A model generated the notes under the pieces. That model worked only from the letters and a program-made list of their open reading frames with translations. It did no database searches and was not told the DNA's origin. A program made the translations under genes and the position numbers. DNA of 51,256 nucleotides from Cyanobacteria bacterium K_Offshore_surface_m2_239 (lineage in GTDB: Bacteria; Cyanobacteriota; Cyanobacteriia; PCC-6307; Cyanobiaceae): positions 1 to 51,256 of the forward strand of contig VGQX01000006.1 of the NCBI GenBank assembly GCA_016882305.1, given 5' to 3'. This document shows, piece by piece, positions 12,429 through 40,080 of the stretch; positions within the stretch are counted from its first letter, which is position 1, and each line of letters starts with the position of its first letter.

Positions 12429-12673
12429 GCCTTCCCCGGCCCGGCTCCATCGGCGCGGGCGTCCGCACGTGGATGCGGCGGGGGCCTCCGTCCGCCTGGC
12501 GCGGATGACCTGTCCCGGCGCTGCTGGCATCAACTCTTCCAAGGCTCGCGCTCCCGGGACGGACGGATCACCTTCCACTTTCGACAGGAGCCGCCCGTCC
12601 CACCCGGGTTCGCCATGAAACGTATCGCTCGCTACAACGACACCCCCTTCCCCGATGCGGGCGGGGATTTGCC

Positions 12674-21166: not shown

Positions 21167-22134
21167 TCCGACTCAGTGGGGGAGGTGCTGATCGGGGGGG
21201 CAATGAAATAACGCTTCTCGATCAGGGTATGCAGTTGATTGAAGTCTTGTTGCAGATGATCGATGGCTTCATGGAGACCACTGGCAATCAGATCATCAAT
21301 CCTGGTATAGCTCCAGCGGGCAAGCGTCAGCCCCGCGAGGCATTCCAGCTCGTCGGGAGCCCCGGGCACAGATCCTCCGCGAATGATGCGCAGGGTTTCA
21401 TTAATCCGTTCCAGGCAGTAACGGACAGAGCGGGGGAAAATGGGATCGAGCAACAGGAAACCAGCCACCGCTCGCGGCGCGATAGCCCGCTGCTGCGACT
21501 GACGAAACATCTGATAGGCTCCAGCCGTACGCAAGAGTGCAATCCATTGCAACTCATCCAGAACACCTCCGACATCCTCATTGGAGGGAAGTAGGAGGAA
21601 GTATTTGACATCAAGGATTCGTGTGGTCTTGTCAGCCCGCTCCAGCAAACGCCCCAACCGGCTGAATTGCCAAGAAAGATCGCGGCTCAGGGTGGCATCC
21701 GTAATGCCATAAAACAGTTGACAATCCCGACGGATCGCACGCAGCTGTTCTTGCGGGGGCTGCTCCCAATAATCTGGCTCTTGGAGACCCCAGTAGCAAC
21801 CATTGATTTGCTCCCACATTTCCGTGGTGACCACATCGCGAATCTGCCTGGCATTCTCACGCGCGAAGGTGATGCAATTCACCACGCTGCTGGGATTGGC
21901 AGGTTCACGCACAAGAAATTTGACCACATCTTCAGGCCGGCCACAGGGGTAAAGCTTGTCAAAGAGCTCGCGGTCACCACTGGCGTCGATCAGGGGCAGC
22001 CAGGGCTCGGCGCTGCCGGGCGGGCAGTCGAGGGCCATGGCTTCGCTGACCTCAACAAAGCGGGAGATATTTTCCGCACGCTCAACATAACGATTGATCC
22101 AGTATAGAGAATCCGCTACACGACTCAGCATCAT
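21151..22134 (-). CDS. Alpha-E domain protein (DUF403, COG2307)
   Basis: 327 residues, almost all helical, with the family opening MLSRVADSLYWINRYVERAENISR and the inner motifs FARENARQIRDVVTTEMWEQIN, FSRLGRLLERADKTTRILDVKYF and LLLDPIFPRSVRYCLERI. Alpha-E proteins are of unknown biochemistry but nearly always accompany the COG2308 ATP-grasp enzyme, and are predicted to help synthesise or attach a peptide. The ATG at 22134 overlaps the ATP-grasp stop as ATGA; a second ATG follows directly. The 3' end overlaps the transglutaminase gene by 16 bases. Confidence 0.9.
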   Translation of the reverse strand: MMLSRVADSLYWINRYVERAENISRFVEVSEAMALDCPPGSAEPWLPLIDASGDRELFDKLYPCGRPEDVVKFLVREPANPSSVVNCITFARENARQIRDVVTTEMWEQINGCYWGLQEPDYWEQPPQEQLRAIRRDCQLFYGITDATLSRDLSWQFSRLGRLLERADKTTRILDVKYFLLLPSNEDVGGVLDELQWIALLRTAGAYQMFRQSQQRAIAPRAVAGFLLLDPIFPRSVRYCLERINETLRIIRGGSVPGAPDELECLAGLTLARWSYTRIDDLIASGLHEAIDHLQQDFNQLHTLIEKRYFIAPPISTSPTESECALS

Positions 22135-23606
22135 TCGACCTCCAATGCGGCCGTCACGTGATCCATCTCTGCGACAGAATCATCAACAATCCAGGTGTCT
22201 TTACATCCCCCACCCTGGGAAGAATTCACCACCAGCGAGCCCCGTCGCAAGGCGACACGAGTGAGACCACCAGGCGTGACCCAGTCCTCTTTGCCACGTA
22301 GAGCATAGGGACGAAGATCGACGTGGCAGGGGTAGATCTCTCCTTCACTCAACGAAGGAACAGTGGAAAGTTCCAAGGTGGGCTGGGCAATGAAGTTTCG
22401 AGGATCTGCTTCGATCTTGGACGCAAAGATAGCAATCTCCTCTTTACTGGCATGCGGGCCAATCAACATCCCATATCCACCAGCCTCAGCAACAGACTTA
22501 ACCACCAGCTCATGAAGATGAGACAATACATAGGAACGATCTTCCGGGCGGGAGCAGAGGTAGGTGGGCACGTTTTCAATGATCGGCTCTTCTTTCAGAT
22601 AATAGCGAATCATCTCCGGCACATAAGCATAGATCAACTTGTCATCAGCCACCCCCGTCCCTGGCGCGTTGGCGATGGCCACCCTCCCCGCCGCATAGGC
22701 GTCCATCAGCCCCGGCACGCCAAGAATGGAATCCTTGCGGAATACATTCGGATCAAGGAAATCGTCATCAATACGACGATAGATGACATCCACCGGCTCC
22801 AACCCAGCCGTGCTGCGCATCCACACGCGCCGATCCTCCACGACCAGATCCCTTCCCTCCACGAGCTGGATGCCCATCTGCTGGGCGAGATAGCTGTGCT
22901 CAAAGTAGGCGCTGTTATAGACGCCCGGGGTCAGGAGGACAACTTTTGGGTTGTCCGTCCAGGTGGCCAGGTCGCTGAGGGTTTGAAGCAAATGGGAGGC
23001 GTAGTTGTCAATGGGCTGAACGGTGCGCCCGGCGAAGAGGCTGGGGAAGATCCGTTTCATCACCCGCCTGTTTTCCAGAAAATAGGCCACCCCTGAGGGA
23101 CAGCGCAGGTTGTCCTCCAGAACCCGCCAGGTGCCTTCCCCATCGCGGACCAGATCGAGTCCCGAAATGTGACACCAACGTCCCAGGGGGGGCTGGATGC
23201 CCTGCATCTGCGGGCGCCAGCCATGGGAGCTCACCACATCTTCGCGAGGCACGACGCCGTCAGCATGAATGTGGCCGGCCCCGTAAGCATCCGCCAGAAA
23301 GAGGTCGATGGCCGCGAGCCTTTGAAACAGACCTTTCTCAAGGATCGCCCATTCGCTGGCGCGGATCAGGCGGGGCAAGGGATCGAAGGGAAGGATGCGC
23401 TCAACCCCCAGACGACCCGAGTCGTTAAGGCGAAAGGTGGCTCCCAGCCGCCGCAACAACATGCCGGCGGCCGCATGGTTGTGGTTGAGCTGCTCAAGTC
23501 CCATGCGTCCCAGGGAAGACAGGAGGGGGGCCAGGGCCGGGCGCGGCTGCGCTGGAGCGCCGAAATATTCGTCATAACCGTGATGGGGCGCGTACTCCGT
23601 GAACAT
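22131..23606 (-). CDS. Circularly permuted type 2 ATP-grasp protein (COG2308)
   Basis: 491 residues. Family features include DPLPRLIRASEWAILEKGLFQRLAAIDLFLADAYG near residues 75-108, then DLVRDGEGTWRVLEDNLRCPSGVAYFLENRRVMKR, DVIYRRIDDDFLDP, NAPGTGVADDKLIYAYVPEMIRYYL and YGMLIGPHAS. The LEDN and related acidic residues fit an ATP/Mg grasp site. The family is predicted to form amide or peptide bonds; no substrate is proven. First gene of the minus-strand block, so it probably carries the promoter in the gap above 23606. The start ATG has GGGGGG a few bases upstream on the opposite strand only, so the ribosome binding site is unclear. Confidence 0.9.
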   Translation of the reverse strand: MFTEYAPHHGYDEYFGAPAQPRPALAPLLSSLGRMGLEQLNHNHAAAGMLLRRLGATFRLNDSGRLGVERILPFDPLPRLIRASEWAILEKGLFQRLAAIDLFLADAYGAGHIHADGVVPREDVVSSHGWRPQMQGIQPPLGRWCHISGLDLVRDGEGTWRVLEDNLRCPSGVAYFLENRRVMKRIFPSLFAGRTVQPIDNYASHLLQTLSDLATWTDNPKVVLLTPGVYNSAYFEHSYLAQQMGIQLVEGRDLVVEDRRVWMRSTAGLEPVDVIYRRIDDDFLDPNVFRKDSILGVPGLMDAYAAGRVAIANAPGTGVADDKLIYAYVPEMIRYYLKEEPIIENVPTYLCSRPEDRSYVLSHLHELVVKSVAEAGGYGMLIGPHASKEEIAIFASKIEADPRNFIAQPTLELSTVPSLSEGEIYPCHVDLRPYALRGKEDWVTPGGLTRVALRRGSLVVNSSQGGGCKDTWIVDDSVAEMDHVTAALEVE

Positions 23607-23916
23607 GGGGGGAGCAGAAGTGCATCAATCCTGAAGGGGCAACGAGCCCGGACCGGTGACGGTTGCTACGGATGCGCCCGCCCGTGGAAGCCATGCCCTG
23701 GCGAGCAACCAGGCCGCCAAAGGCTCAGGGAGGCGCTGGCGAGCGGCTGAAGCGAAGAGCAGGAAGCGGTCTCATTGCAAACATAACGAGACACATACTG
23801 GCGCGCGGATTCCATGACAAAGCGGGATCTTGGGCGGCGATTGGTTGCCATGTCGGCAGTGACTGCATAGAGTTGAGTGGAGTCTTGACTCTGAACATTT
23901 CCTTAAATTGAGTCTT
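23607..23916. promoter_or_regulatory. Divergent intergenic region between the ATP-grasp block and the first sorting-tail protein
   Basis: No gene recognised. The base composition falls sharply from about 23760 on. A perfect inverted repeat GAGTC-TT-GACTC lies at 23880-23891, and GAGTCTT recurs immediately before the ATG at 23917, so the region may hold an operator. No clear -35/-10 pair was identified. Confidence 0.35.
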
Positions 23917-24675
23917 ATGCATTCCAAATTTGCTTCAACCGCAAAGCTAGGCCTGTTGCCAGCTGCGCTTGGCATCAGCTTGATGCTTCCGTCTCAAGCG
24001 CAAGCGTTGAGTCTCGGATATCAACTGACTCCCGTCCAGACCTTCCAGACGTTTGGTAACGACACCACCACTCCATCTCTCCCCATCACCTTCCCCGGCT
24101 TCAACACCTCCGCCCTACCTCCCGGTCACCTTTCTGCCACTCTTGTCGGCTATCAGTACTACATCCCATCGGTCACCCTGAGTGGCGTGTCCCGATTGGT
24201 TTGTGACGACTTCACCACCATTCCACCATTTAGCTGCCCACTGCCCGGTCCGCTCCCCACCACGGCGACTCTCTCTTTTGACAGCATTGTCCCCGGTGGT
24301 TCTGCTGTGGCAATTCCTGCCATCAGCGGCAGTGTTGCTGGACCTGCGACAACAACTTACACATTTAATGCGATCACCGGTAGCGCATCTAACATCTTCA
24401 CCACGACCACGGCTCTCTTCCCCCCTGGCCCCTATACCAACACTCCTGTTAGCCTTGATTTTTACAAAACAGCCTGGGCCTACACTGGACCTAGCGGTGT
24501 AAGCACCCAGTTCCTCGGTACTGCTTTCCCTCTTAACACCCGAGCAATTGTTACAGGTCAATTCGGCATCCGTTACGTTTACTCTTATGTCCCTGGTCCC
24601 CTCCCTCTTCTGGGAGCTGGTGCTGCTTTCGGCTGGTCGCGCAAGCTTCGCCGTCGGATCACGCAAACAGTCTGA
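23917..24675 (+). CDS. Exported protein with C-terminal PEP-CTERM-like sorting tail (1)
   Basis: 252 residues from ATG 23917; a TTG three codons upstream is less likely. A signal peptide (LGLLPAALGISLMLPSQAQA) ends near residue 30. The mature part is Thr/Pro/Ser-rich, beta-like, without a known domain. The C-terminus has the sorting layout: VPGPLPLL, a hydrophobic run LGAGAAFGWS and a basic end RKLRRRI. Such tails in cyanobacteria are thought to be recognised by a cyanoexosortase, which cleaves and attaches the protein at the surface or to exopolysaccharide. Neighbour of an HpsJ-like gene and of a second protein with a nearly identical tail. Much AT-richer than the flanks. Confidence 0.72.
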   Translation: MHSKFASTAKLGLLPAALGISLMLPSQAQALSLGYQLTPVQTFQTFGNDTTTPSLPITFPGFNTSALPPGHLSATLVGYQYYIPSVTLSGVSRLVCDDFTTIPPFSCPLPGPLPTTATLSFDSIVPGGSAVAIPAISGSVAGPATTTYTFNAITGSASNIFTTTTALFPPGPYTNTPVSLDFYKTAWAYTGPSGVSTQFLGTAFPLNTRAIVTGQFGIRYVYSYVPGPLPLLGAGAAFGWSRKLRRRITQTV

Positions 24676-24690
24676 GTGACCTCAAGTTTC

Positions 24691-24719
24691 AAGACCCCCC
24701 TGTCGGGGGTTTTTTTTTG
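24691..24719 (+). terminator. Rho-independent terminator after the first sorting-tail gene
   Basis: Stem ACCCCC/GGGGGT (24694-24699 with 24705-24710) and loop CTGTC, followed directly by a run of nine T residues. The preceding A residues can extend the stem into the T-run. Confidence 0.85.
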
Positions 24720-24758
24720 GGGGTTGGACTAAAATTTTTTTACTACCATTGGCCTCCC

Positions 24759-25757
24759 TTGAATTCCACCTCTTTCTCCCGACTGCTGGCCCGGAGTGGC
24801 TTGATCCTCCTGATCCTGTTTGGGGTGGTCGTGGCTTTCGATGTCTCGCCACCCAAACTCCTACAGCCCGACTGGCTACTCAATTTTGGCATTACTTTAT
24901 CCAACACCATATCAATTCCATTCGTCGGCATTGTACTTGTATACGTTGCAAGCTATATCGATTTACAAGCCTGCAATAAATTATATGTGCGCGTCGCTCG
25001 ACTCTCAGCTTTGTTGGCCATGTTATTTTTACTGGTCCAACCCATGCTTGCTTTCGCCCTATGGAAAAACTTTCAAGATCTGAGAGTTTATAATAAAGAA
25101 CAATCCAATCTTATCCAGCGGAAAGGGGCTGACTTGACTCGGGCCATTCAAAACTCAACGACGTTTGCGGACTTGCAAATCAACATGTCCAGGCTTCAGG
25201 GTCCAAACATCCCTGATCAAGCGCGTGCTGTTCCCCTAGCCGAACTCAAGAAGCAGTTGCTTTATTCCATTCAAACCGCCCAAAAATCTTTTGCCAGTCG
25301 ACTTCCCTCTCCCACCTCTGATGCCTACAAAGCAATTTACAAGCGCATGGCTCGCGCGTCTTTGATCAGCCTGCTCGGGACCGTGGGTTTTGGCTTATTG
25401 GCAATAAACCCAAATACAGAAAAGAATATTCTTATTTTGTATTTCAAATCTATTGGACTATTTGGAATAACTCCTGCTTCGATCTACAAGTTCTACAAAG
25501 AGTATGCTGAGAATCAGAGAGAGAAGAAACAACTACAAGGAGTGACTAAGGAAAGAAGAAAGTCAACGCTAAATTATCAACGACAAAAGCGTAAGGCTGA
25601 AGTTCTACAACTGCGCGAACAGAAACGCCAATTGAACGAAGACAGGAAACTGGCTGAAAGAAGGCAGCGGGAGCGCGAGCGGATGCTCGAACTGGAGCAC
25701 AAAAGAGCGAGAAAACAGGAATTGGAAGAAGAGCAGGAGCAGTCTGATCGCCGCTGA
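24759..25757 (+). CDS. HpsJ-like membrane protein
   Basis: 332 residues from TTG 24759; the frame opens further upstream only inside the terminator T-run, so the start is placed here. Hydrophobic segments lie near residues 9-27 (RLLARSGLILLILFGVVVA), 46-66 (TISIPFVGIVLVYVASYID), 80-100 and 194-214, with a soluble region between the last two. The C-terminal 80 residues are a highly charged Lys/Glu/Arg/Gln coiled coil. The first two helices and the IPFVG motif resemble HpsJ-family proteins linked to cyanobacterial exopolysaccharide export and cyanoexosortase systems. Its position between two sorting-tail proteins fits. Identity is by resemblance only. Confidence 0.55.
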   Translation: MNSTSFSRLLARSGLILLILFGVVVAFDVSPPKLLQPDWLLNFGITLSNTISIPFVGIVLVYVASYIDLQACNKLYVRVARLSALLAMLFLLVQPMLAFALWKNFQDLRVYNKEQSNLIQRKGADLTRAIQNSTTFADLQINMSRLQGPNIPDQARAVPLAELKKQLLYSIQTAQKSFASRLPSPTSDAYKAIYKRMARASLISLLGTVGFGLLAINPNTEKNILILYFKSIGLFGITPASIYKFYKEYAENQREKKQLQGVTKERRKSTLNYQRQKRKAEVLQLREQKRQLNEDRKLAERRQRERERMLELEHKRARKQELEEEQEQSDRR

Positions 25758-25852
25758 CACGTCGGATATCCCCTGCTTGCAAGTCCGCTTCCTGCATTTT
25801 TGCTCGCCTTCTTTAGTCCAAGATCTTCAATTTTTTTCTTGAGATATTATTA

Positions 25853-25889
25853 GTCGGGTCTTCCTTGGCGGGGAATCCGGCTTTTTTTT
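25853..25889 (+). terminator. Terminator after the HpsJ-like gene
   Basis: An imperfect hairpin (GTCGGG...TCC pairing with GGA...TCCGGC, with a two-base bulge and a 7-base loop) is followed by eight T residues at 25882-25889. The 25758-26060 gap otherwise holds no gene; GTCACGCAA occurs twice in it, near 25891 and 25916. Confidence 0.65.
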
Positions 25890-26060
25890 GGTCACGCAAA
25901 AAACGACTTGCAGCCGTCACGCAAGTCTCGCTGGACCAGCTCATATACAGGACGTCTTAGGCGTTTCACCTGATTCTTGATCAGTTCAGCCGCTGTCACA
26001 CCATGAAATTTTGGAAAGGCTTAATGCGTGTTACGGTCTGCGGATCTTCTCTTTTTCTTC

Positions 26061-26777
26061 ATGCGCGCTCTATGGCTCACGGGCTTTGCGACCGCCTCCA
26101 TGCTTGCGGCATGTCCCGCGCATGCTCTGATTCAGACGGTCAGCCCCATCGGTGGAGGTGGTTTCAACACCACAGGTCCGAATGTAAACAATACCAACAT
26201 TCAATTTCCTCCATTTTCAGCTTCAGCGCCCGGCGATCTTTTGGGGGTCCGAATTAAACTTCTGAACTCCTTTTTTACAGGGGGCTACGATTTGCTTGGG
26301 TCTAATACTGGAACAGTAACAATATCTTCAAATACTGTTGCTGTGCCTAAGTTTACTTTCACAGGCAGCGTCGGCTCTTCTAGTGGTGCTTCACAAGCTC
26401 TATCCCCTACACCTCGCGTTACGAGTTGCCCCACGTTTACGTTCGGCTCCAGTAATTTTTGTGTAGATAATGTCGCTCTAAGTCCCGCTAGCCAGCTTTA
26501 CGTCCAAGCATTTGCCCAATTAGCCGCAAGCACACCAGCTTTGCAAGCTTATTTCACTGGTACTCCAACCATTGATTTTGTTGAGACTCTCTACACGAAG
26601 ACTCAAACTCCTCTAACTCCTTCTCTTGCGTTTGATCCCGCGAATTTGAACTTCGCTGGCAATATCGTCCTCGAGTATGAGTATGTACCCGGACCATTGC
26701 CCCTCCTAGGAGCAGGGGCGGCCTTCGGTTGGAGCCGTCGCCTCCGGCGTCGGATATCGACATCCACTAAAGTCTGA
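26061..26777 (+). CDS. Exported protein with C-terminal PEP-CTERM-like sorting tail (2)
   Basis: 238 residues from ATG 26061. Signal peptide MRALWLTGFATASMLAACPAHA, then a beta-rich Thr/Ser/Asn-rich body resembling choice-of-anchor-type domains (FTGGYDLLGSNTGTVTISSN), with a Cys pair in VTSCPTF and SSNFCVD. The tail VPGPLPLLGAGAAFGWSRRL plus RRRI is the same as in the protein at 23917 except for one Lys/Arg change. An ATG at 26003 in another frame reads MKFWKGLMRVTVCGSSLF, so a frameshift near the T-run at 26052 could hide a longer N-terminus. Function is unknown; surface or matrix location is inferred from the tail. Confidence 0.68.
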   Translation: MRALWLTGFATASMLAACPAHALIQTVSPIGGGGFNTTGPNVNNTNIQFPPFSASAPGDLLGVRIKLLNSFFTGGYDLLGSNTGTVTISSNTVAVPKFTFTGSVGSSSGASQALSPTPRVTSCPTFTFGSSNFCVDNVALSPASQLYVQAFAQLAASTPALQAYFTGTPTIDFVETLYTKTQTPLTPSLAFDPANLNFAGNIVLEYEYVPGPLPLLGAGAAFGWSRRLRRRISTSTKV

Positions 26778-26801
26778 TTCCTCTAAACAAATCACTTCCA
26801 G

Positions 26802-26836
26802 CCCCCTTCTTTATATTTAAACGGCAGGGAAGGGGG
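26802..26836. terminator. Hairpin between convergent genes
   Basis: Perfect 8-base stem CCCCCTTC/GAAGGGGG with a 19-base AT-rich loop, followed by TTGTATAAATTGTTT. It lies between the second sorting-tail gene (plus) and ureC (minus) and can serve both strands. Confidence 0.6.
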
Positions 26837-26887
26837 TTGTATAAATTGTTTCTGGAGAACGGCAGGGAGACAGCCAGGTCTCTGCTT

Positions 26888-28597
26888 TTAGAGTAAAAAA
26901 TAAAGTTGAGCAAGTGGTAATTCAGCAGCGGGTTCGCAGTAGAGCATTTCTCCATCCGCAAATACTTCATAAGTCTGTGGATCCACCTCCATTTTTGGTA
27001 GAGAGTTATTGTTCCGCATATCTTTCTTACCAACACAGCGAGTCTGAATGACCGGAACGCAAGATCGCCGCAGACCCAGACGGCGAGGCAGATCGTCATC
27101 CAGAGAAGCTTGACTGATAAAAGTGAGACAACTAGGGGTCAAAGCTTCACCAAAAGCTGCAAACATCGGCCTGCCGTGAACCGGTCCCGGGGTGGGAATT
27201 GAAGCATTAGCATCTCCCATCTGGGCCCAGACAATTGAGCCGCCCTTCAGAACCAATTCCGGTTTCACAGCAAAGAACCCTGGTTTCCAGACCACTAAAT
27301 CCGCCAGTTTTCCTACCTCCACTGAGCCAACCTGGGAATCGATCCCATGGGCAATGGCAGGGTTGATGGTGGTTTTTGCGATATAGCGCTTCAGACGAGT
27401 ATTGTCATTGCGGTCCCCATCGCCCACAAGAGCGCCACGCTGGACCTTCATTTTGTGAGCAGTCTGGAAAGTCCGCTGAATAACTTCACCCACTCGACCC
27501 ATCGCTTGGGAGTCACTGGCAATAATGGAAAAGGCACCAAGATCATGAAGGATGTCTTCGGCAGCGATGGTTTCACGGCGGATGCGCGATTCAGCAAAAG
27601 CCACATCTTCCGGGATCCTTGGATCCAGATGATGGCAGACCATCAACATATCCAAGTGTTCTTCCAGCGTATTTCGGGTATAGGGCCGTGTAGGGTTCGT
27701 GCTACTTGGCAAGACATTGACCTCCCCGCAAATGCGAATGATGTCTGGGGCATGACCACCGCCAGCGCCTTCGGTATGAAAGGTGTGAATCGTCCGCCCC
27801 GCAATGGCACGAATCGTATCTTCCACAAACCCCGCCTCATTGAGCGTATCGGTGTGGATGCACACCTGCACATCAAAACGATCCGCAACCGACAGGCAGC
27901 AGTCGATGGCAGCGGGGGTGGTCCCCCAGTCCTCATGGAGCTTCAGGCCACAGGCTCCCGCACGGATCTGCTCCTCGATTCCCTCAGGCGTGCTGGCATT
28001 GCCCTTGCCGTAGAAGCCAAGATTGACGGGTAAACCCTCTGCGGCCTGCAACATCCGAGCCAGGTGAAAGGCTCCGGGCGTGCAAGTGGTGGCGTTGGTG
28101 CCGGTGGCGGGTCCTGTGCCTCCACCAAGGAGCGTGGTGACACCACTGGCCAGCGCCGTTTCCACCTGCTGAGGGCAGATGAAATGAATGTGGGTGTCGA
28201 TGGAACCGGCCGTCACGATGTGACCCTCACCCGCGATCGCTTCCGTGCCAGGTCCAACGACGATTGTGACCCCGTCTTGGGTGTCAGGATTGCCTGCCTT
28301 GCCGATGGCCACAATCCGTCCATCGCGCAGGCCGATGTCCGCCTTCACGATGCCCCACCAGTCCAGGATCACGGCGTTGGTGATGACAGTGTCGACCGCC
28401 CCTGCGGCACGACTGGTCTGCGCTTGACCCATGCCGTCGCGAATCACCTTGCCACCGCCGAATTTCACCTCGTCGCCATAGACGGTGAAGTCCTTCTCCA
28501 CCTCCAGAATCAGTGCGGTGTCCGCGAGCCGCAGCCGATCCCCCGTGGTGGGTCCATAGGTTTCGGCGTAGACGCGACGATCGATGGGATAAGCCAT
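26888..28597 (-). CDS. ureC: Urease subunit alpha
   Basis: 569 residues from ATG 28597 ([20 protein letters not shown]). It is the catalytic nickel subunit, hydrolysing urea to ammonia and carbamate. Active-site residues are all visible: His136 and His138 in DTHIHFI, the Lys219 expected to be carbamylated in [10 protein letters not shown], the histidines of [10 protein letters not shown] and [11 protein letters not shown], the catalytic loop His in [13 protein letters not shown], and the Asp ligand in [14 protein letters not shown]. Numbering is offset by two from the Klebsiella enzyme. Last gene of ureDABC, 29 bases after ureB. Confidence 0.97.
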
Positions 28598-31703: not shown

Positions 31704-32336
31704 ATGGCCGCAAGCCGCCTGCGGGTCGGGGTGGCGGGCCCCGTCGGCTCGGGCAAAACCGCCCTGGTGGAAGCCCTCTGTCGTCGCCTGCGGGATCGCC
31801 TTCAGCTCGCCGTGGTGACGAATGACATCTACACCCAGGAAGACGCTCAGTTTCTGACTCGGGTCGGAGCCCTGACGCCGGACCGGATTCGCGGCGTGGA
31901 AACCGGTGGCTGTCCGCACACGGCCATCCGGGAAGACTGCTCGATCAACCGCGCGGCGGTGGCCGAGCTGGAGGGGGCCTTCCCCAACCTGGATCTGGTG
32001 CTGGTGGAGAGCGGTGGCGACAACCTGGCCGCCAGCTTCAGCCCGGAATTGGTCGATCTTTGCATCTACGTCATCGACGTGGCGGCGGGCGACAAGATTC
32101 CCCGCAAAGGGGGCCCTGGCATCACCCGCAGCGATCTGCTGGTGATTAACAAAATCGATCTGGCGCCTCTGGTGGGGGCTTCTCTGGAGGTGATGGAACG
32201 AGACGCCAGCCGCATGCGGCCGGGCCGGCCCTGGTGTTTCACGGATTTGCGCCGTGGCGAGGGACTCGATGCGGTGGAAGGCTTTGTGCTGCGGCAGCTT
32301 CCGCCGCGGCCCCAGGACGGCCTCAGCGGTGAATAA
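31704..32336 (+). CDS. ureG: Urease accessory GTPase UreG
   Basis: 210 residues. P-loop [10 protein letters not shown] at residues 11-20, nickel-binding CPH in [32 protein letters not shown] and the guanine-specificity motif [12 protein letters not shown]. It hydrolyses GTP to drive nickel delivery into urease. ATG at 31704 has a strong ribosome binding site (AGGGAAAGGGA directly upstream), better than for most genes here. 71 bases after ureF; 194 bases ahead of urtA. Confidence 0.96.
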
Positions 32337-32410
32337 TTCTTTTTTTCTTAACAGCAACGCTGGGGGCGACGTCTGCAAATCCTGAGAAAAGGCGTTCAGA
32401 TTCGCGAAAA

Positions 32411-32452
32411 GTCGCTGTTGTTACCAGATGGGCGGGGTGTGGTCGATAACTT
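32411..32452 (+). promoter_or_regulatory. Predicted NtcA-activated promoter of urtABCDE
   Basis: GTCGCTGTTGTTAC at 32411-32424 matches GTA-N8-TAC with one mismatch. A TAACTT box fitting TAN3T starts exactly 22 bases downstream at 32447. This is the canonical layout of NtcA class II promoters. The transcript would start near 32459, about 70 bases before the urtA ATG. Read by eye; binding is not shown. Confidence 0.55.
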
Positions 32453-32530
32453 CGCCGTTGATTCCCGAATTTGGGATTTGTGCGATGACCTTCACACGGT
32501 CGTCAATCCCTTTCCTTTGGAGCCCTTTAC

Positions 32531-33835
32531 ATGAAGCCTCTGGCACAGCACTTCTCCACACGTCGGTGGATCAGTGGTGGTTCTGCTCTCAGCTTGACAC
32601 TGACTCTCGCTGCCTGTGGCGGCGGCGGGGGAGGTGGCAATTTTGATGGCGAGGTCAAAGTTGGCATTCTTCACTCCCTCAGTGGGACGATGGCCATCTC
32701 CGAAACCACCCTCAAAGAGGTGGAGGAGATGGCCATCAAGGAAATCAACGACGCTGGTGGCGTCAAGGTTGGTGGCAAGAGCTACAAGATCACTGCCATT
32801 TCTGAGGATGGCGCTTCCGATTGGCCGACCTTTGCTGAAAAGGCGCAAAAGCTGATCGACGCCGACAAAGTCGCCGTGGTCTTCGGCGGCTGGACGTCCG
32901 CCAGCCGCAAGGCCATGCTGCCGGTCTTTGAAGCAAAGAACCACATCTTGTTCTACCCGATCCAATACGAAGGACAGGAGTGCTCCCGAAATATCTTCTA
33001 CACCGGTGCTGTTCCCAATCAGCAGGCTGAACCAGCGGTGGACTGGCTGCTTAAGGAGTTTGGGCCAAAATTTGGCAAGAAGGTTTACCTTGTTGGCTCT
33101 GACTACGTCTATCCGAGGACAGCTAATACCATCATCAAGGAGCAGATGAAGGCCCGCGGTGGAGAAACCGTTGGAGAAGATTATATTCCTCTTGGCAACA
33201 CCGAGGTTGCTCCAATCATTGCCAAGATCAAAAAGGTCTATCCTGATGGTGGCATCATTATCAACACCTTGAACGGTGACTCGAACGTCGCCCTCTTCAA
33301 GCAGTTCAAGGCCGCCGGCATTGATCCGAAGAAGTATCCGATCATGTCCTTCTCCATTGCGGAGGAGGAGATTCGCCAGATCGGCCCTGAGTACACCAAC
33401 GGCACCTACGCCGCCTGGAACTTCTTCATGAGCCTGGATACTCCGGCTTCCAAGAAATTCACAGCTGACTTCCAAGCCATGTATGGCAAGGACCGAGTCA
33501 CTGGAGACCCGGCAGAATCCGCCTACAACATGGTTTATCTCTGGAAGAACGCCGTCGAGAAAGCGGGGACCTTTGAGGATCTGGACAAAGTTCGCAAGAA
33601 CATGATCGGCATCTCCTTCGCCGCCCCTCAAGGTGAGATCAAGATGTTCCCCAACCATCACACCTCCGAGCGGGTGCTGATTGGCGAAGCGGAACCAACT
33701 GGCCAGTTCAAGATTCTCTACGACTCCAAGACCGCTGTGCCCCCGATCCCTTGGAACCAGTTTGTTCCCGAAACCAAGGGCTATACCTGCGACTGGACTC
33801 TAGATCGTCCAGACGCTGGCAAGTTCCGGATGTGA
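32531..33835 (+). CDS. urtA: Urea ABC transporter substrate-binding lipoprotein UrtA
   Basis: 434 residues. Signal peptide with lipobox LAAC (Cys29) followed by a Gly-rich tether (CGGGGGGGNFDG), so it is lipid-anchored in the periplasm. The type I periplasmic-binding fold of the urea/short-amide group shows: VKVGILHSLSGTMAISETTLK, VVFGGWTSASRKAMLPVFE, LFYPIQYEGQECSRNIFYTGA, VGSDYVYPRTAN, NTLNGDSNVALFKQF and DPAESAYNMVYLWKNA. It captures urea (and possibly short amides) for UrtBCDE. First of the urt operon with a predicted NtcA promoter. Codon use is clearly less GC-rich than in the nrt and que regions. Confidence 0.95.
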   Translation: MKPLAQHFSTRRWISGGSALSLTLTLAACGGGGGGGNFDGEVKVGILHSLSGTMAISETTLKEVEEMAIKEINDAGGVKVGGKSYKITAISEDGASDWPTFAEKAQKLIDADKVAVVFGGWTSASRKAMLPVFEAKNHILFYPIQYEGQECSRNIFYTGAVPNQQAEPAVDWLLKEFGPKFGKKVYLVGSDYVYPRTANTIIKEQMKARGGETVGEDYIPLGNTEVAPIIAKIKKVYPDGGIIINTLNGDSNVALFKQFKAAGIDPKKYPIMSFSIAEEEIRQIGPEYTNGTYAAWNFFMSLDTPASKKFTADFQAMYGKDRVTGDPAESAYNMVYLWKNAVEKAGTFEDLDKVRKNMIGISFAAPQGEIKMFPNHHTSERVLIGEAEPTGQFKILYDSKTAVPPIPWNQFVPETKGYTCDWTLDRPDAGKFRM

Positions 33836-33843
33836 TCCCCTTG

Positions 33844-33872
33844 GATGGCCCCCTCCGGGGCCATCTTGGTTT
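33844..33872 (+). terminator. Hairpin between urtA and urtB
   Basis: Perfect 9-base stem GATGGCCCC/GGGGCCATC (33844-33852 with 33857-33865) and a 4-base loop, then TTGGTTTT. It could be a partial terminator or an RNA-stabilising end that keeps urtA more abundant than the permease genes. A second pairing of two AGTACT copies follows at 33873-33901. Confidence 0.65.
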
Positions 33873-33980
33873 TAAGTACTTCCTTGGTTTTTTAGTACTT
33901 CGCATTTTCAAGACTCTGACCATAGACAATACACTTTCATCTGTCATTATTGTTATTTTATCCCTGCGATGGATTATTGA

Positions 33981-35138
33981 ATGGAGCTTTTCTTCTCACA
34001 GCTCCTTGATGGGCTCAGCATCGGATCTGTTCTTCTTCTAGCGGCAACAGGTCTGGCGATTGTTTTCGGCTTGATGGGCGTCATCAATCTCGCCCATGGC
34101 GAATTTCTGATGCTTGGTGCTTATGTCACCTTCGTGGTGCAAGGCATCTTCAAGCCGATGGGGGGCATCCTGTTCGAGCTTTATTTCCCCATCGCCCTTG
34201 TGGCCTCCTTCGTTGTTACAGCCTTGGTTGGAGCCCTGCTGGAGCGAACCCTGATCCGCCAGCTCTATGGCCGCCCATTGGAAACCCTGCTGGCGACCTG
34301 GGGGGTGAGCCTGGTCTTGATTCAGTTGGTGCGCAGTGTCTCAACCGCCATGTTGATCGGCATTCTGGTAGCCATCGCTCTCGGTTGGTTTGCCGCGAAG
34401 ATGCTGCGGACGCGGTTTGAGGAGAAACTCTTTCTTCCTTACATCGTGGGGCTCAGCTGGATTGGATCCTCCTTGATCGGTATTGCTTTCGCCAGTTGGC
34501 TGTCCAACATCCGCCCCCTCGCGAGCGCCTGGTTTGGCCCACGAAACATTGACGTCACCGCTCCCAAGTGGCTTCAAGGAAGCTGGGGGAAAATCGCAGG
34601 CATTGAACTGCCCGGTATCCGCATTTTCATCATCCTGCTTTCCGCCATTTTACTTTTGGCGACCTTTTGGTTCTTGAACAAAAGTGTTTGGGGACTTCGC
34701 ATGAGAGCTGTGACCCAGAATCGGCAGATGAGCAATTGCCTTGGAATTCCTACAGATAAGGTGGATTGCATCACCTTTGCACTTGGTTCCGGATTGGCTG
34801 GAGTAGCTGGTGCGGCCATCACTCTGCTGGGATCGGTCGGGCCAAATCTTGGTGCCGCTTATATCGTTTCTTGTTTCATGGTCATCGTGCTTGGGGGTGT
34901 CGGCAACCTGCTTGGTACCGTTCTGGCTTCATTTCTCCTTGGCATCATTCAGTCCGTCATTGGATCCGGCTCGTTGTTGATCGTGTTTCCAAACCTGCCA
35001 GGATCAGTCAAAGGTTTCGTTGAATTTTTTGCCACGACCAGCATGTCTCTGGTCCTTGTCTTCATCTTTATCATCGCCTTTCTCCAATTCAGACCGAATG
35101 GGATGTTTCCACAGAAAGGTCGATCTGTTGAGAACTAG
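33981..35138 (+). CDS. urtB: Urea ABC transporter permease UrtB
   Basis: 385 residues, polytopic, of the LivH-type branched-chain amino acid permease superfamily. N-terminal motif LLLAATGLAIVFGLMGVINLAHGEFLMLGAY, later WGLRMRAVTQNRQMSNCLGIPTDKV (cytoplasmic coupling loop) and VSCFMVIVLGGVGNLLGTVLAS. Together with UrtC it forms the membrane pore. It lies 145 bases after urtA, separated by a hairpin. A UrtB-specific insert between the helices (about residues 130-215) is present. Confidence 0.95.
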   Translation: MELFFSQLLDGLSIGSVLLLAATGLAIVFGLMGVINLAHGEFLMLGAYVTFVVQGIFKPMGGILFELYFPIALVASFVVTALVGALLERTLIRQLYGRPLETLLATWGVSLVLIQLVRSVSTAMLIGILVAIALGWFAAKMLRTRFEEKLFLPYIVGLSWIGSSLIGIAFASWLSNIRPLASAWFGPRNIDVTAPKWLQGSWGKIAGIELPGIRIFIILLSAILLLATFWFLNKSVWGLRMRAVTQNRQMSNCLGIPTDKVDCITFALGSGLAGVAGAAITLLGSVGPNLGAAYIVSCFMVIVLGGVGNLLGTVLASFLLGIIQSVIGSGSLLIVFPNLPGSVKGFVEFFATTSMSLVLVFIFIIAFLQFRPNGMFPQKGRSVEN

Positions 35139-35200
35139 ATCATCATTCCTCAACTTGGCCTACCTCCCACCTCCTCTTCCTCTATCCCAGAGAAACAGCC

Positions 35201-36340
35201 TTGAAACTCCTTCGCTCCCTCTTCCCCTGGATACTTCTGGCTGTAGCCCTCTTTATACTTCCCATCATTCTTGACGACTTTCGTTTAAACCTCTTTGGCC
35301 GATATTTTTCATTGGCGATTACCGCCTTAGCCATTGACCTCATCTGGGGGTATACCGGACTGCTGAGCTTAGGTCAAGGCATCTTTTTTGCACTTGGCGG
35401 TTATGCAGTCGCGATGTATCTGATGCTCAACACTCCAAGCGAGGCTGGAGGCAATGGGATTCCAAAATTTTTCGAGAATTATGGCGTGGCCGAGTTGCCC
35501 TTCTTCTGGCAGCCCTTCTGGTCGCCAGTGGTCACCTTGATTGCTCTATGGCTTATTCCAGCAATTATTGCTGGCTTGGTTGGCTATTTGATTTTCCGCA
35601 ATCGAATCAAAGGAGTTTATTTTTCAATTATTACCCAAGCTGCGTTGATGGTTTTCTACCACTTCTTCAACGGTCAGCAAAAATTGATCAATGGGACCAA
35701 TGGCCTCAAGACAAGTACGACTGAACTTTTTGGCCAGCTCGTTGGTTCACCCAGTCTTCAAGAGTGGCTTTATCGGTTGACAGTTGTTTTACTCCCCGTC
35801 GCCTTTTTGATCTGTCGTTATTTCACAAGTGGTCGATTTGGTGATGCTTTGATTGCGATTCGGGATGACGAACTTCGCTTAAGATTCACAGGTTATAACC
35901 CTGTTCCATTCAAGACAATCGTCTTCATCGTCGCCGGAGCTTTGTGCGGCATATCCGGCGCACTCTATACAGTCCAATCTGGAATTGTGTCTCCTCAATA
36001 CATGACCATTTCCATGTCTATTGAAATGGTCATCTGGGTAGCCGTCGGCGGCAGAGGCACCTTGATTGGCCCTATCATCGGAGCAGTTCTTGTCAATTAT
36101 CTCAGAAGCCTTGTCAGTGAAGCTTTGCCTGAGATGTGGCTGTTTGTCCAAGGTGCTCTCTTTATTTTTGTCGTTGTATTGATGCCTGATGGCATCTATG
36201 GCTGGTTCAAAAATGGTGGTTTTTCTCGGCTCCTCGCGGCCTTTGGTTTTGCCACCAAGACGGCCACTTATCCCCAACTCGACCAGGATCCTGGGGTCCT
36301 GGAGGAAATGTCATCGACATCAGGGACCAAGAAATTGTGA
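35201..36340 (+). CDS. urtC: Urea ABC transporter permease UrtC
   Basis: 379 residues from TTG 35201 (no ATG or GTG fits the N-terminus). LivM-type permease: LIWGYTGLLSLGQGIFFALGGYAVAMY, RFGDALIAIRDDELRLRFTGYNPVPFK (coupling loop) and EMVIWVAVGGRGTLIGPIIGAVLVNY. About eight to ten membrane helices. Partner of UrtB. The C-terminal 35 residues are hydrophilic. The unusual start codon and 62-base gap after urtB suggest lower translation than urtA. Confidence 0.94.
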   Translation: MKLLRSLFPWILLAVALFILPIILDDFRLNLFGRYFSLAITALAIDLIWGYTGLLSLGQGIFFALGGYAVAMYLMLNTPSEAGGNGIPKFFENYGVAELPFFWQPFWSPVVTLIALWLIPAIIAGLVGYLIFRNRIKGVYFSIITQAALMVFYHFFNGQQKLINGTNGLKTSTTELFGQLVGSPSLQEWLYRLTVVLLPVAFLICRYFTSGRFGDALIAIRDDELRLRFTGYNPVPFKTIVFIVAGALCGISGALYTVQSGIVSPQYMTISMSIEMVIWVAVGGRGTLIGPIIGAVLVNYLRSLVSEALPEMWLFVQGALFIFVVVLMPDGIYGWFKNGGFSRLLAAFGFATKTATYPQLDQDPGVLEEMSSTSGTKKL

Positions 36341-36370
36341 CCCATTTGTAACTCACATTCCACCTCTGCC

Positions 36371-37120
36371 ATGACCCAAGTCCCACTTCTCGATATGACT
36401 GACGTCAGCGTCAGTTTTGATGGATTTTACGCTTTGACAGATCTCTCCATCCGTCTGCTACCAGGTGAGCTGAGATCCATCATTGGTCCGAATGGTGCCG
36501 GGAAAACAACCTTCCTTGACGTCATCACTGGCAAGGTTAAACCGACAAAAGGATCGGTTGCCTTCCAAGGCAAAAACCTGCGCGGACTCTCAGAGCAAAA
36601 AATCTCACGACTAGGGATTGGTCGAAAGTTTCAGACTCCGAGAGTGTTTGACAATCTCAGTGTTCTCCGCAATTTGGAGCTTGCTGCCGCACCGATGAAG
36701 AATCCCGTGGGTCTGTTTCGTGACACGCTACCGATGTCAGTTAAAGATGATGTGCAGCATCTCCTTGGTTATGTCGGCCTCGCCCCTTACGCCCGTAGCC
36801 AGGCGGGATCCCTCTCCCATGGTCAGAAACAGTGGCTGGCTATCGCCATGGTGGTGGCCCAATCGCCGCAGCTGCTCCTTCTTGATGAACCTGTTGCTGG
36901 CCTGACAGATGAAGAGACCAGTCGCACAGCGGAGTTAATCAAGTCGCTGGCGGGCAAGCACACCGTGGTTGTCATTGAACATGACATGGAATTCATCCGT
37001 GAGCTCAATGCCCCCGTAACGGTTTTGCATCAGGGGACAGTCTTGACGGAAGGCTTGTTGGATTCAGTAAAAAAGGATCCCAAGGTGATCGAGGTTTACC
37101 TCGGACAATCGCAAGACTAG
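36371..37120 (+). CDS. urtD: Urea ABC transporter ATP-binding protein UrtD
   Basis: 249 residues, LivG-type ATPase: Walker A GPNGAGKTT, RKFQTPRVFDNLSVLRNLELA (the LivG helical insert), signature LSHGQKQWLAIAMVV, Walker B LLLLDEPVAGLTDEE and H-loop VVVIEHDMEFI. LSHGQ in place of LSGGQ is normal for UrtD. It supplies energy together with UrtE. 30 bases after urtC. Confidence 0.95.
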   Translation: MTQVPLLDMTDVSVSFDGFYALTDLSIRLLPGELRSIIGPNGAGKTTFLDVITGKVKPTKGSVAFQGKNLRGLSEQKISRLGIGRKFQTPRVFDNLSVLRNLELAAAPMKNPVGLFRDTLPMSVKDDVQHLLGYVGLAPYARSQAGSLSHGQKQWLAIAMVVAQSPQLLLLDEPVAGLTDEETSRTAELIKSLAGKHTVVVIEHDMEFIRELNAPVTVLHQGTVLTEGLLDSVKKDPKVIEVYLGQSQD

Positions 37121-37157
37121 TTTTTATTTCTTTCACCACCTTTCAACAAGACCCACA

Positions 37158-37904
37158 ATGACGCTGTCCGCACCAGCAGCCACCCCAACTGGCCACAAGG
37201 ACGTTCTCACAGTTTCTGGTCTCAATGTTTACTACGGCGAGAGTCATATTTTGCGTAATGTCGACTTGCACATTCCAGAAGGTGAGATGGTTTGCCTGAT
37301 TGGTCGGAATGGCGTTGGCAAGACAACATTCCTCAAGACCATCATTGGACTTTTACAACAGAAGAGTGGCACTGTCCACTTTGAGGGCACCTCTTTATTA
37401 GCGCAACCACCCTATCAACGTGCGCGAACAGGGATTGGCTACGTTTCCCAAGGAAGAGATATCATTCCTCAGCTAACGGTTAAAGAAAATTTGCTTTTGG
37501 GAATGGAAGCTTTGCCGGGTGGTATCAGCAAGAACCGCCGCATTGACCCGATTATTTTTGACTTGTTTCCGATTCTTGAGAAGTTTCTTGGCCGCAAGGG
37601 AGGAGATCTATCCGGCGGTCAACAACAACAGTTGGCGATTGCTCGCGCCATGCTGGGCAGACCAAAGCTTTTACTGCTTGATGAACCAACGGAAGGGATT
37701 CAACCTTCGATTATTTTAGATATTGAACGTGCTGTTCAGCGCATCATGAAAGAAACAGGAATCAGTGTTCTCTTGGTTGAACAACATTTGCATTTTGTTC
37801 GGCAAGCCAGCTTTTACTACGCGATGCAGCGCGGAGGGATTGTTGCCAGCGGCCCCATCTCCACACTTTCTGATGCCATTGTTTCTGAGTTTCTAACCGT
37901 CTAA
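37158..37904 (+). CDS. urtE: Urea ABC transporter ATP-binding protein UrtE
   Basis: 248 residues, LivF-type ATPase: LNVYYGESHILRNVDLHIPEG, Walker A GRNGVGKTT, GIGYVSQGRDIIPQLTVKENLLLG, signature LSGGQQQQLAIARAM, Walker B LLLLDEPTEGIQPSI and H-loop LLVEQHLHF. Last gene of urtABCDE, convergent with the fmdB-like gene 35 bases downstream. A weak TGGCA/TGCCA repeat sits in that gap. Confidence 0.95.
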   Translation: MTLSAPAATPTGHKDVLTVSGLNVYYGESHILRNVDLHIPEGEMVCLIGRNGVGKTTFLKTIIGLLQQKSGTVHFEGTSLLAQPPYQRARTGIGYVSQGRDIIPQLTVKENLLLGMEALPGGISKNRRIDPIIFDLFPILEKFLGRKGGDLSGGQQQQLAIARAMLGRPKLLLLDEPTEGIQPSIILDIERAVQRIMKETGISVLLVEQHLHFVRQASFYYAMQRGGIVASGPISTLSDAIVSEFLTV

Positions 37905-37939
37905 TGGCATTGCACCCGAGCCTGTGGTTGTGCCAAGGT

Positions 37940-38212
37940 TCAGCAGCCGCGGTTCAGCATCCACGGCCGTGTGCTGCCGGCATCTTTGAGTCTGGGTTTC
38001 GCATCACCTTCCGTGGCCTTGCGAACGATTTTTGGTTCGCGATTTTCCACTTTCAGACGCAATGGGCCACAGAGGGTCATCGGCGGAGAAAACACACGCT
38101 GACCTGGCAGACCGCAATTGGGGCAGTCTGTATCCGCCGTCCGTTGATCAATGGTCCGCCAGACCTCATAGTTGTCACAGCCCTGGCTGCAGCTGAATTC
38201 GTAAACAGGCAT
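37940..38212 (-). CDS. fmdB: FmdB-family zinc-ribbon protein
   Basis: 90 residues. MPVYEFSCSQGCDNYEVWRT and TDCPNCGLPGQRVFSP form a zinc ribbon with Cys8, Cys12, Cys30 and Cys33; the first pair is spaced by three residues instead of the usual two. FmdB proteins are small putative regulators encoded next to formamidase genes. 70 bases downstream of fmdA on the same strand, so likely cotranscribed. No DNA-binding domain is obvious, so the regulatory role is only inferred from the family name. Confidence 0.82.
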   Translation of the reverse strand: MPVYEFSCSQGCDNYEVWRTIDQRTADTDCPNCGLPGQRVFSPPMTLCGPLRLKVENREPKIVRKATEGDAKPRLKDAGSTRPWMLNRGC

Positions 38213-38282
38213 GTTCGGAGAAGAAAAAAGAGAGGGCTGGTGAAACCAGCCCCAATATCGTCAGGGGAAGTTGGCGTGACGA

Positions 38283-39488
38283 TCAGGTTGGCAGGATATC
38301 CTGCTCAAAGATACCCGTCGGAATCGCCAAGGTCGCACAGGCGTTGGGGATATCAACAATGCCACTGATCCGACCCTCGACGGGAGCGCAGCTGAGGAGC
38401 AGATAAGCCTGCTCGCCTGTGAAACCGAAGCGCTTAAGATATTCGATGGCATTCAAACATGCCCGTCGATACGCAATGTGCACATCCATATAATATTGCT
38501 CACCTTCAAACTCATCGACGGAGATGCCTTCAAAGACCAGATAGTCCTTGAATTGAGGTTCAATCGGACTGGTTTTGAACATGGGATTCACCATCCCATA
38601 CTTGGCAACACCCCCTTTGATGATATCAACATGAAGGTCGATATAGCCTGACATTTCAATCGCGCCGCAGAAGGAGATTTCGCCATCACCCTGAGAGAAG
38701 TGGATGTCTCCCATCGACAGTTTTGCACCCTCCACATAGACAGGGAAATAAATGCGCGTTCCCTTGGTCAGGTTTTTGATGTCGCAGTTGCCGCCATGTT
38801 CCCGCGGTGGCACTGTGCGCGCCGCCTCATGGGCCACCCGGTCAAACTCCGAGCTCGGCAGGGTGCCAAGGATGGCGCTGTTGGGGTTGGGGAGGGCGGC
38901 CAGAACAGGTTCGCTGCCGGACAGTCCGGCACCGTAAGTGCGACGATCCGGGGCCGTGTTCACCAGCTCGGTCTCGCGACGGTTCCACTCGCGCAGGAGC
39001 TCGTGGGAGGGCGCGCAGCCAATCAGGCCTGGATGGGTGATGCCCGCAAACCGGACGCCGGGGATGTGCCGCGAGGAGGTGTAAATGCCCTCCAGGTCCC
39101 AGATCGCCTTTGCGGCCTTGGGGAAGTGATCCGTGAGGAAGCCCCCGCCATTTTCCTTGGCAAAAATCCCGGTGAATCCCCACTCATCTCCCTGCAGCGC
39201 ACCGACATCCAAGAGGTCGACCACCAGAATGTCGCCCGGCTCGGCGCCATTGACCCAGATGGGACCACTGAGGACATGGACGACTTCAAGATTGACGGTT
39301 TCGATGTCCTTTGGATCATCGTTGTTTTTGATTTGTCCGTCGGTCCAGTCTTTGCACTCGATGCGGAAAACATCGCCTGGATTGACGGAGGCCACGGCTG
39401 GGATGTCCGGATGCCAACGGTTGTGGCCCGGCATCTCCTGTTGATCCATCGGTTTCGTGAGATCAACCTTGAACAGCGTCTTTGGCAT
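38283..39488 (-). CDS. fmdA: Formamidase
   Basis: 401 residues from ATG 39488 (MPKTLFKVDLTKPM); a further start lies at 39509. FmdA/AmdA family: MPGHNRWHPDIPAVASVNPGD, VHVLSGPIWVNGAEPGDILVVDLLDV, GGFLTDHFPKAAKAIWD, GITHPGLIGCAPS, REHGGNCDIKNLTKG and FSQGDGEISFCGAIEMSG. It hydrolyses formamide (possibly short amides) to formate and ammonia in the cytoplasm. It lies beside the urea operon and has a perfect NtcA consensus 56 bases upstream of its start. Acetamidase activity is an alternative. Confidence 0.93.
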   Translation of the reverse strand: MPKTLFKVDLTKPMDQQEMPGHNRWHPDIPAVASVNPGDVFRIECKDWTDGQIKNNDDPKDIETVNLEVVHVLSGPIWVNGAEPGDILVVDLLDVGALQGDEWGFTGIFAKENGGGFLTDHFPKAAKAIWDLEGIYTSSRHIPGVRFAGITHPGLIGCAPSHELLREWNRRETELVNTAPDRRTYGAGLSGSEPVLAALPNPNSAILGTLPSSEFDRVAHEAARTVPPREHGGNCDIKNLTKGTRIYFPVYVEGAKLSMGDIHFSQGDGEISFCGAIEMSGYIDLHVDIIKGGVAKYGMVNPMFKTSPIEPQFKDYLVFEGISVDEFEGEQYYMDVHIAYRRACLNAIEYLKRFGFTGEQAYLLLSCAPVEGRISGIVDIPNACATLAIPTGIFEQDILPT

Positions 39489-39514
39489 GGGCGCCAGCAC
39501 AGAGGGCAAGGAGG

Positions 39515-39557
39515 ATCAAAGGCCAACCCATTCGCACCAATATGTAGCCCTTGCTAC
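39515..39557 (-). promoter_or_regulatory. Predicted NtcA-activated promoter of fmdA
   Basis: On the minus strand GTAGCAAGGGCTAC at 39557-39544 fits the NtcA consensus GTA-N8-TAC perfectly. A TTTGAT box (one base off TAN3T) follows 23 bases downstream at 39520-39515. The site lies between the fmdA start and the end of the upstream lipoprotein gene, in non-coding DNA. Confidence 0.6.
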
Positions 39558-39570
39558 CCAATGAAATCTT

Positions 39571-40080
39571 CTAGCGCTCCTCCCCTGTAGCTCGCTTTTG
39601 CGGACGATCATCAAAACTTCCCCGCCGACATAGATTTTCACGCAAACGATCTGCCCAGGACCCAGGTTTTCGGCCCATGCGCACATCCTGTCGACCAGAA
39701 AAATTATAAAGAATCTGCCATTGCGTATCACCCGAGCGACCTGTGGCCTCCTCCACGCGGCGGATGGGACGCCCGTAGAGGTTGTCGTAACCGGGCCAGC
39801 CCGGCTCATCCGGCAGAGAACAGATGGCATTGATCTCCATCAGCTTGGGCGCCCCGCCCCCCGGGGCGCTGAAGCTGACCACGCCATCAAACAAGCCGTT
39901 GGGCTCTCCCTGGCGAAACGGTTTGACCAACCTCACCGCCTCCTCTCCGGAGCGCACGAGCACATCCCCTGGCTTGGCTTTCGCCTGGGGCGTCTCGCCC
40001 GACGCCAGGTGGCAGCCCCCCAGGCCCAGGCTCAGACCGAGGGCCAAAAGAGCCAGGGGACCGGCCTCCAGGGTGCGCAT
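39571..40080 (-). CDS. Putative lipoprotein of unknown function
   Basis: 169 residues from ATG 40080. Hydrophobic leader ALLALGLSLGLGGC with lipobox Cys23. The mature part has PGDVLVRSGEEAVRLVKPF, LMEINAICSLPDEPGWPGYDNLYGRPIRRVEE and TQWQILYNFSGRQDVRMGR, with no domain recognised. The C-terminus is very basic. Divergent from another exported protein across a 99-base gap that holds a 7-base hairpin (CCTCCTC/GAGGAGG, 40123-40142). Longer open frame upstream is non-coding in appearance. Confidence 0.65.
   Translation of the reverse strand: MRTLEAGPLALLALGLSLGLGGCHLASGETPQAKAKPGDVLVRSGEEAVRLVKPFRQGEPNGLFDGVVSFSAPGGGAPKLMEINAICSLPDEPGWPGYDNLYGRPIRRVEEATGRSGDTQWQILYNFSGRQDVRMGRKPGSWADRLRENLCRRGSFDDRPQKRATGEER

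Follow-up and report, generated by a model that had tools for sequence, protein, structure and literature searches.

A conserved putative NtcA-type promoter variant upstream of the formamidase gene fmdA in the Cyanobiaceae

The sequence GTAGCAAGGGCTAC, found upstream of the formamidase gene fmdA in the 51,256-nucleotide stretch of contig analysed here (the window), is very probably the NtcA-binding site of an activator-dependent, class II-like variant of the fmdA promoter. From the sequence, compared across relatives, we infer NtcA binding, the transcription start site, induction and substrate use. The region contains the following features:

39544..39557, minus strand: NtcA-type site GTAGCAAGGGCTAC, read from 39557 to 39544, upstream of fmdA
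39515..39520, minus strand: candidate -10 box TTTGAT, exactly 23 bases after GTAGCAAGGGCTAC
39507..39509, minus strand: predicted transcription start, about 39508, placed from the position of the -10 box
38283..39488, minus strand: fmdA, formamidase, 401 amino acids from the ATG at 39488 (profile and structure matches)
38233..38253, minus strand: hairpin with T run resembling an intrinsic terminator, in the gap separating fmdA from fmdB, weak when taken alone
37940..38212, minus strand: fmdB-type zinc-ribbon protein, 90 amino acids (PF09723, 37 bits, cut-off 34.4; TIGR02605, 38 bits, cut-off 31.3)
39571..40080, minus strand: LipX (name coined here), a lipoprotein assigned to no named family and encoded upstream of fmdA
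32531..37904, plus strand: urtABCDE, encoding a urea transporter and convergent to fmdAB
32411..32424, plus strand: NtcA-like site GTCGCTGTTGTTAC before urtA, followed at N22 by the -10 box TAACTT (32447-32452)

The fmdA ATG occupies 39488..39486 on the minus strand, with 55 bases between it and the end of GTAGCAAGGGCTAC (a coordinate difference of 56). The perfect GTA-N8-TAC described there by the initial annotation is present, read from 39557 to 39544 on the minus strand, and has the palindrome of NtcA class II promoters. The same annotation placed a near-consensus -10 box 23 bases further on. Its position was right, at N23 where class II promoters have TAN3T about 22 bases downstream, but 'near-consensus' was generous: TTTGAT matches TATAAT at four of six positions and has no A in second place, the defining feature of TAN3T. 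A longer in-frame TTG start of fmdA at 39509 would coincide with the predicted transcript start.

The naming of the gene as a formamidase was borne out. Over its full length, FmdA scores 624 bits against PF03069 (cut-off 27) and 670 bits against the formamidase model NF045496 (cut-off 500), and its nearest solved structure, PDB 2wkn, is named formamidase and also matches at full length (553 bits). From this enzyme family we infer that the organism may use amides. What distinguishes FmdA here from the wider PF03069/2wkn family is its setting, with the gene convergent to urtABCDE and LipX upstream; in Methylophilus, the fmd genes are grouped with those of an amide/urea transporter. All five Urt subunits score over the cut-offs of their own models, and the association with urea proposed earlier also stands, given that the urt cluster is convergent to fmdA and urtA has an NtcA-like promoter of its own. 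Across the 55 family loci described below, urtE is convergent on the 3' side of fmdA in 51, and fmdB follows fmdA on its strand in 54; every exception, for both genes, falls where the contig or the retrieved sequence stops. The terminator-like hairpin is the only one in its region, for which shuffles give 2.7, and a hairpin with a T-rich tail 3' of fmdA was seen in 40/55 family loci in a scan run without a shuffle control. Given this hairpin and tail, most transcription of fmdA may stop short of fmdB. The G+C content of the window is 0.50-0.54 at 24001-28000 and 32001-40000, 0.59 at 20001-24000 and 0.65-0.72 in most other stretches; the urt-fmd side is likewise lower in G+C than the other flank in the eight relatives examined.

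GTA-N8-TAC occurs three times in the window against 0.42 expected, a number reached in 0/100 shuffles, and at 44 places in the organism's own genome (3.52 Mb) against about 29 expected (0.42 x 68.7, scaled from the window). Given 44 places where about 29 would arise by chance, a bare perfect match is weak evidence, likelier to be chance than not. The genome control was the pattern read backwards, found at 609 places, the composition of which differs from that of GTA-N8-TAC. The two further perfect palindromes in the window lie at 12622-12635 and at 26675-26688, the latter some 200 bases 3' of ureC.

What decides against a chance match is the conservation of the motif in 55/55 orthologous loci, the bare match not being decisive. 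The family set comprised 300 genomes including the organism's own, with a PF03069 match in 58 and a full-length fmdA in 55, from 11 genera. G044, G209 and G287 have only distant partial PF03069 matches and were left out of the fmdA set; L055 (G216) was kept in the counts despite three in-frame stops in its fmdA, beside which the promoter site, LipX and a further formamidase, AmiF (see below), are still present. In every locus of all 11 genera, GTA/GTG-N8-NAC lies 48-61 bases before the fmdA start (in L039, where the counted site is at -49, another lies at -65). The left half-site is GTA in 54 loci and GTG in one (L015); the right half-site is CAC in 33, TAC in 12, AAC in six and GAC in four, with AC in all 55. 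GTA-N8-NAC is accordingly found in 54/55, and the perfect palindrome at this position in 11/55 (a pattern scan gives 12, as the second upstream site of L049 is included). We therefore rejected the perfect palindrome as key evidence, and the stress that the initial annotation laid on a perfect consensus was misplaced, most loci having CAC as the downstream half.

The hexamer TTNNAT follows the site in 52/55 loci, at N22 in 47, at N23 in three (that of the window included) and at N21 in two; L002, L023 and L041 are without it at N21-23. Its columns, which were not used in anchoring the site, come close to it in conservation. A GTA site and TTNNAT at N21-23 occur together in 51/55 loci (shuffle mean 0.04, maximum 1) and in 10 of the 11 genera, the exception being g34 (L041); as the 55 loci are relatives, the shuffles overstate their independence and the 11 genera are the fairer number. 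A divergent promoter sharing the site was rejected by eye, the columns 23-28 upstream of the site not being conserved.

One genus, g5, has a second NtcA-like site upstream of the first:

about 100 bases before fmdA: second site, in the g5 loci L035-L038, L043, L047, L049-L052 and L055

With at most one mismatch, the second site lies 51 bp upstream in nine loci and 50 bp in one, and the eleventh g5 locus, L047, has a site at 51 bp with two mismatches; the background, taken from other offsets in the full set of 55 sequences, amounts to 8 hits at 9955 positions. By analogy, a distance of about five helical turns between two presumptive activator dimers resembles the paired CRP sites of E. coli.

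The stop codon of LipX ends 13 bases before the NtcA-type site, and LipX lies upstream of fmdA on the same strand in 55/55 loci; because of this arrangement, some fmdA transcript may be read-through. That fmdA is expressed mainly in this way, or from a constitutive promoter inside LipX, with the NtcA site playing a minor part, seems unlikely to us. The sequence GTGATA-17-TATAAT (39731..39703, minus strand) inside LipX is a 10/12 sigma-70-like match, one of three such matches in a 2.6-kb region against 0.6 in shuffles. In g5 (11/55 loci), however, a second formamidase gene or its remnant stands between LipX and fmdA, and the site still adjoins fmdA.

LipX, a protein of 169 residues, contains a lipobox-like LGGC, and 25 columns are invariant among the 22 sequences compared. 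It had no NCBIfam match; a search of Pfam gave a weak Big_2 match (E 0.033) in one of the 22 members, and a search of the PDB gave three matches only, all with E >= 0.7. The mean pLDDT of its predicted structure is 59.7. LipX is encoded in 59 of the 300 family genomes, namely in 55/55 with full-length fmdA and in 4/245 without it (G018, G118, G137 and G154). In G018 (L305, 5306-5845) and on one G118 contig (L309, 3-317) it stands beside urtE, convergent, with neither fmdA nor fmdB between them, an apparent loss of the formamidase pair fmdA/fmdB in these two genomes; in G137 and G154 its neighbourhood is truncated by the ends of contigs. A perfect GTA-N8-TAC lies upstream of LipX in 14/55 loci, all of them in g5, g24 and g34 (a count made without a shuffle control). 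As a -10 box of either tested form follows at N21-23 in 0/14 of these, NtcA control of LipX is only suggested. The cluster in those same 14 loci also holds AmiF, a formamidase unrelated to FmdA (NF009803, 602 and 605 bits in the two tested):

L035:3750-4799 and L041:3380-4453: AmiF, present also in L008, L036-L039, L043, L047, L049-L052 and L055

In g5, AmiF separates LipX from fmdA; in g24 and g34 it is located on the 3' side of fmdB. The copies in L050 and L052 are truncated.

Other genes of the family provide a yardstick for what an NtcA promoter looks like, and the yardstick works, since ntcA, urtA and glnA show recognisable NtcA promoters. In the same scan, canonical promoters were found at 26/30 urtA loci (30 sampled of 56 places over cut-off), 29/30 ntcA loci (30 sampled of 35 places) and 13/19 glnA loci, and the fmdA type at none of the three; for fmdA in the family the canonical form was found at 0/55 loci and its own type at 51/55. 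Glutamine synthetase type I (TIGR00653) is over cut-off in 19/35 family genomes, the other 16 having weaker relatives only. The half-sites were compared in a scan that required a -10-like hexamer and preferred TAN3T. The distal GTA is present in 1/30 and the proximal TAC in 29/30 at ntcA (30 of 35 places), in 3/30 and 26/30 at urtA (30 of 56 places), and in 5/13 and 13/13 at glnA among the loci with a candidate (13/19). Judged by these sequences, the fmdA promoter is a variant in which the upstream half-site is kept and the downstream one relaxed, the reverse of ntcA and urtA, with a -10 box TTN2AT.

The strict canonical pattern was found at none of the amt (0/30), cynS (0/18) and glnB (0/30) loci, and the strict fmdA type at 0, 0 and 1, respectively. 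Relaxed scans of these genes gave sites with other -10 boxes. Both amt1 (GTA 19/20, TAC 2/20) and cynS (GTA 11/11, TAC 0/11) have the same polarity as fmdA, and glnB keeps both halves (GTA 23/25, TAC 20/25). These counts cover 20 of the 30 fetched amt loci (the amt1 type), the 11 of 18 cynS loci that passed, five of them with a right half other than NAC, and 25 of 30 glnB loci (L277 and L300-L303 dropped); as the distance ranges for amt1, cynS and glnB were chosen after a first look, the polarity table is a lead and partly post hoc. One tentative reading, which we hold possible but rather doubtful, is that there are two polarity classes, ntcA/urtA/glnA keeping the proximal TAC and fmdA/amt1/cynS the distal GTA, with fmdA adding TTN2AT; that polarity sets the strictness or order of the response to NtcA and PipX; and that LipX is an unrecognised lipoprotein of amide/urea scavenging, perhaps NtcA-controlled in three genera.

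NtcA itself is over the model cut-off in 35/35 family genomes searched. The organism's own NtcA scores 376 bits against the NtcA model and 305 bits, over 193 residues, against the solved NtcA 2xgx; in the presumed DNA-recognition helix the two differ by a single conservative change. PipX acts together with NtcA. When ammonium runs short, 2-oxoglutarate would rise and NtcA, thus charged, would bind the palindrome with PipX. With its centre some 42 bp upstream of the start predicted near 39508, the palindrome would overlap the place of a -35 box, and NtcA would recruit RNA polymerase to TTTGAT, a -10 box probably too poor to work alone. The formamidase would then free ammonium and formate from formamide. 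The published form of the NtcA site, in the part of the source available, is GTAN8TAC centred near -40.5 with a -10 box TAN3T, and the site-to--10 spacing at fmdA agrees with it (PMC9430850). In Arthrospira PCC 8005, according to the available portion of the report, FmdA rises under nitrogen limitation, which is the expected direction (PMC4509649).

Binding of the site by another regulator of the CRP/FNR family in place of NtcA is distinctly improbable: the genome does have, besides NtcA itself (376 bits against the NtcA model), three more sequences that match this model weakly (74, 33 and 31 bits), but the GTA/TAC half-sites are of the NtcA form as given in the accessible text (PMC9430850), ntcA and urtA of the family have a related pattern of equal spacing, and fmdA is a nitrogen-scavenging gene. 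A chance match, in whose favour the genome count of 44 against about 29 could be cited, is contradicted by conservation, as 11 genera share the position of the site and 10 of them the -10 spacing, and was rejected as next to impossible.

Beyond the family, we surveyed the best 80 of 585 confirmed fmdA loci from named genomes: six family members (L146-L151, not recounted), 40 other cyanobacteria, among which L185, titled Candidatus Gracilibacteria, was placed by similarity, and 34 non-cyanobacteria. Within these best 80 of 585, canonical GTN-N8-TAC-N21..23-TAN3T at most 300 bases before fmdA was found in 10/40 other cyanobacteria (shuffles 0.52, maximum 3) and in 0/34 non-cyanobacterial loci, and perfect palindromes in 13/40 (shuffles 1.53) and 3/34 (shuffles 0.61), respectively. 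The family's fmdA-type pattern was found in 1/40 and 1/34 of the same best 80 of 585, no more than shuffles allow; the single match among the 34 non-cyanobacterial loci was equalled in 13/200 shuffles. Because the canonical promoters in this outside set lie at varied distances before fmdA and have TAN3T as their -10 box, control of fmdA by NtcA seems either to be ancient or to have arisen repeatedly, and the family's promoter looks like its own version. Proteobacterial fmdA genes in the same set of 80 of 585 (L199 and L203-L214) have, by eye, a motif like TTACAAAAAATTACA 100-160 bases upstream, perhaps the site of another regulator. The initial annotation had put fmdA under NtcA control; a footprint that keeps its position in 11 genera, together with the canonical promoters of 10/40 other cyanobacteria among the best 80 of 585, supports this well, the argument being one from sequence throughout. 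A search of titles and abstract openings, mostly without subscription papers, returned no report of an NtcA site at fmdA. Older predictions of the NtcA regulon could list the gene.

With class II NtcA promoters the fmdA promoter has in common the palindrome, a spacing of 22-23 bases to the -10 box, a nitrogen gene and a site near the start codon. It differs in that class II promoters have GTA-N8-TAC at about -41 and TAN3T, whereas fmdA has TTTGAT here and TTN2AT in the family, a downstream half that is mostly CAC and, in one genus, a second site 50-51 bp upstream. Departures from consensus similar to those at fmdA are found at other genes in Synechococcus WH7803, where, in the portion of the source available, the putative NtcA promoter of narB has the -10 box TTGGAT, and one of the two nrtP sites has GTA on the left and AAC on the right, the other being a perfect palindrome (PMC9430850). 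These narB and nrtP sites lie 125-304 bp from the start, compared with 48-61 for the fmdA sites (PMC9430850, same portion).

In eukaryotic phytoplankton communities, formamidase is strongly raised at low nitrogen, its function being called unknown in the available part of that report (PMC9599627). With a conserved NtcA-type promoter in Cyanobium/Synechococcus relatives, the cyanobacterial part of this picture can be tested directly. Its reversed half-site polarity and off-consensus -10 box make this promoter a natural case for comparing how NtcA sites tune responses, and LipX, the lipoprotein linked to fmdA, is a new candidate component in the use of organic nitrogen. The arrangement fits a switch that would let the cell take amide nitrogen when ammonium runs short.
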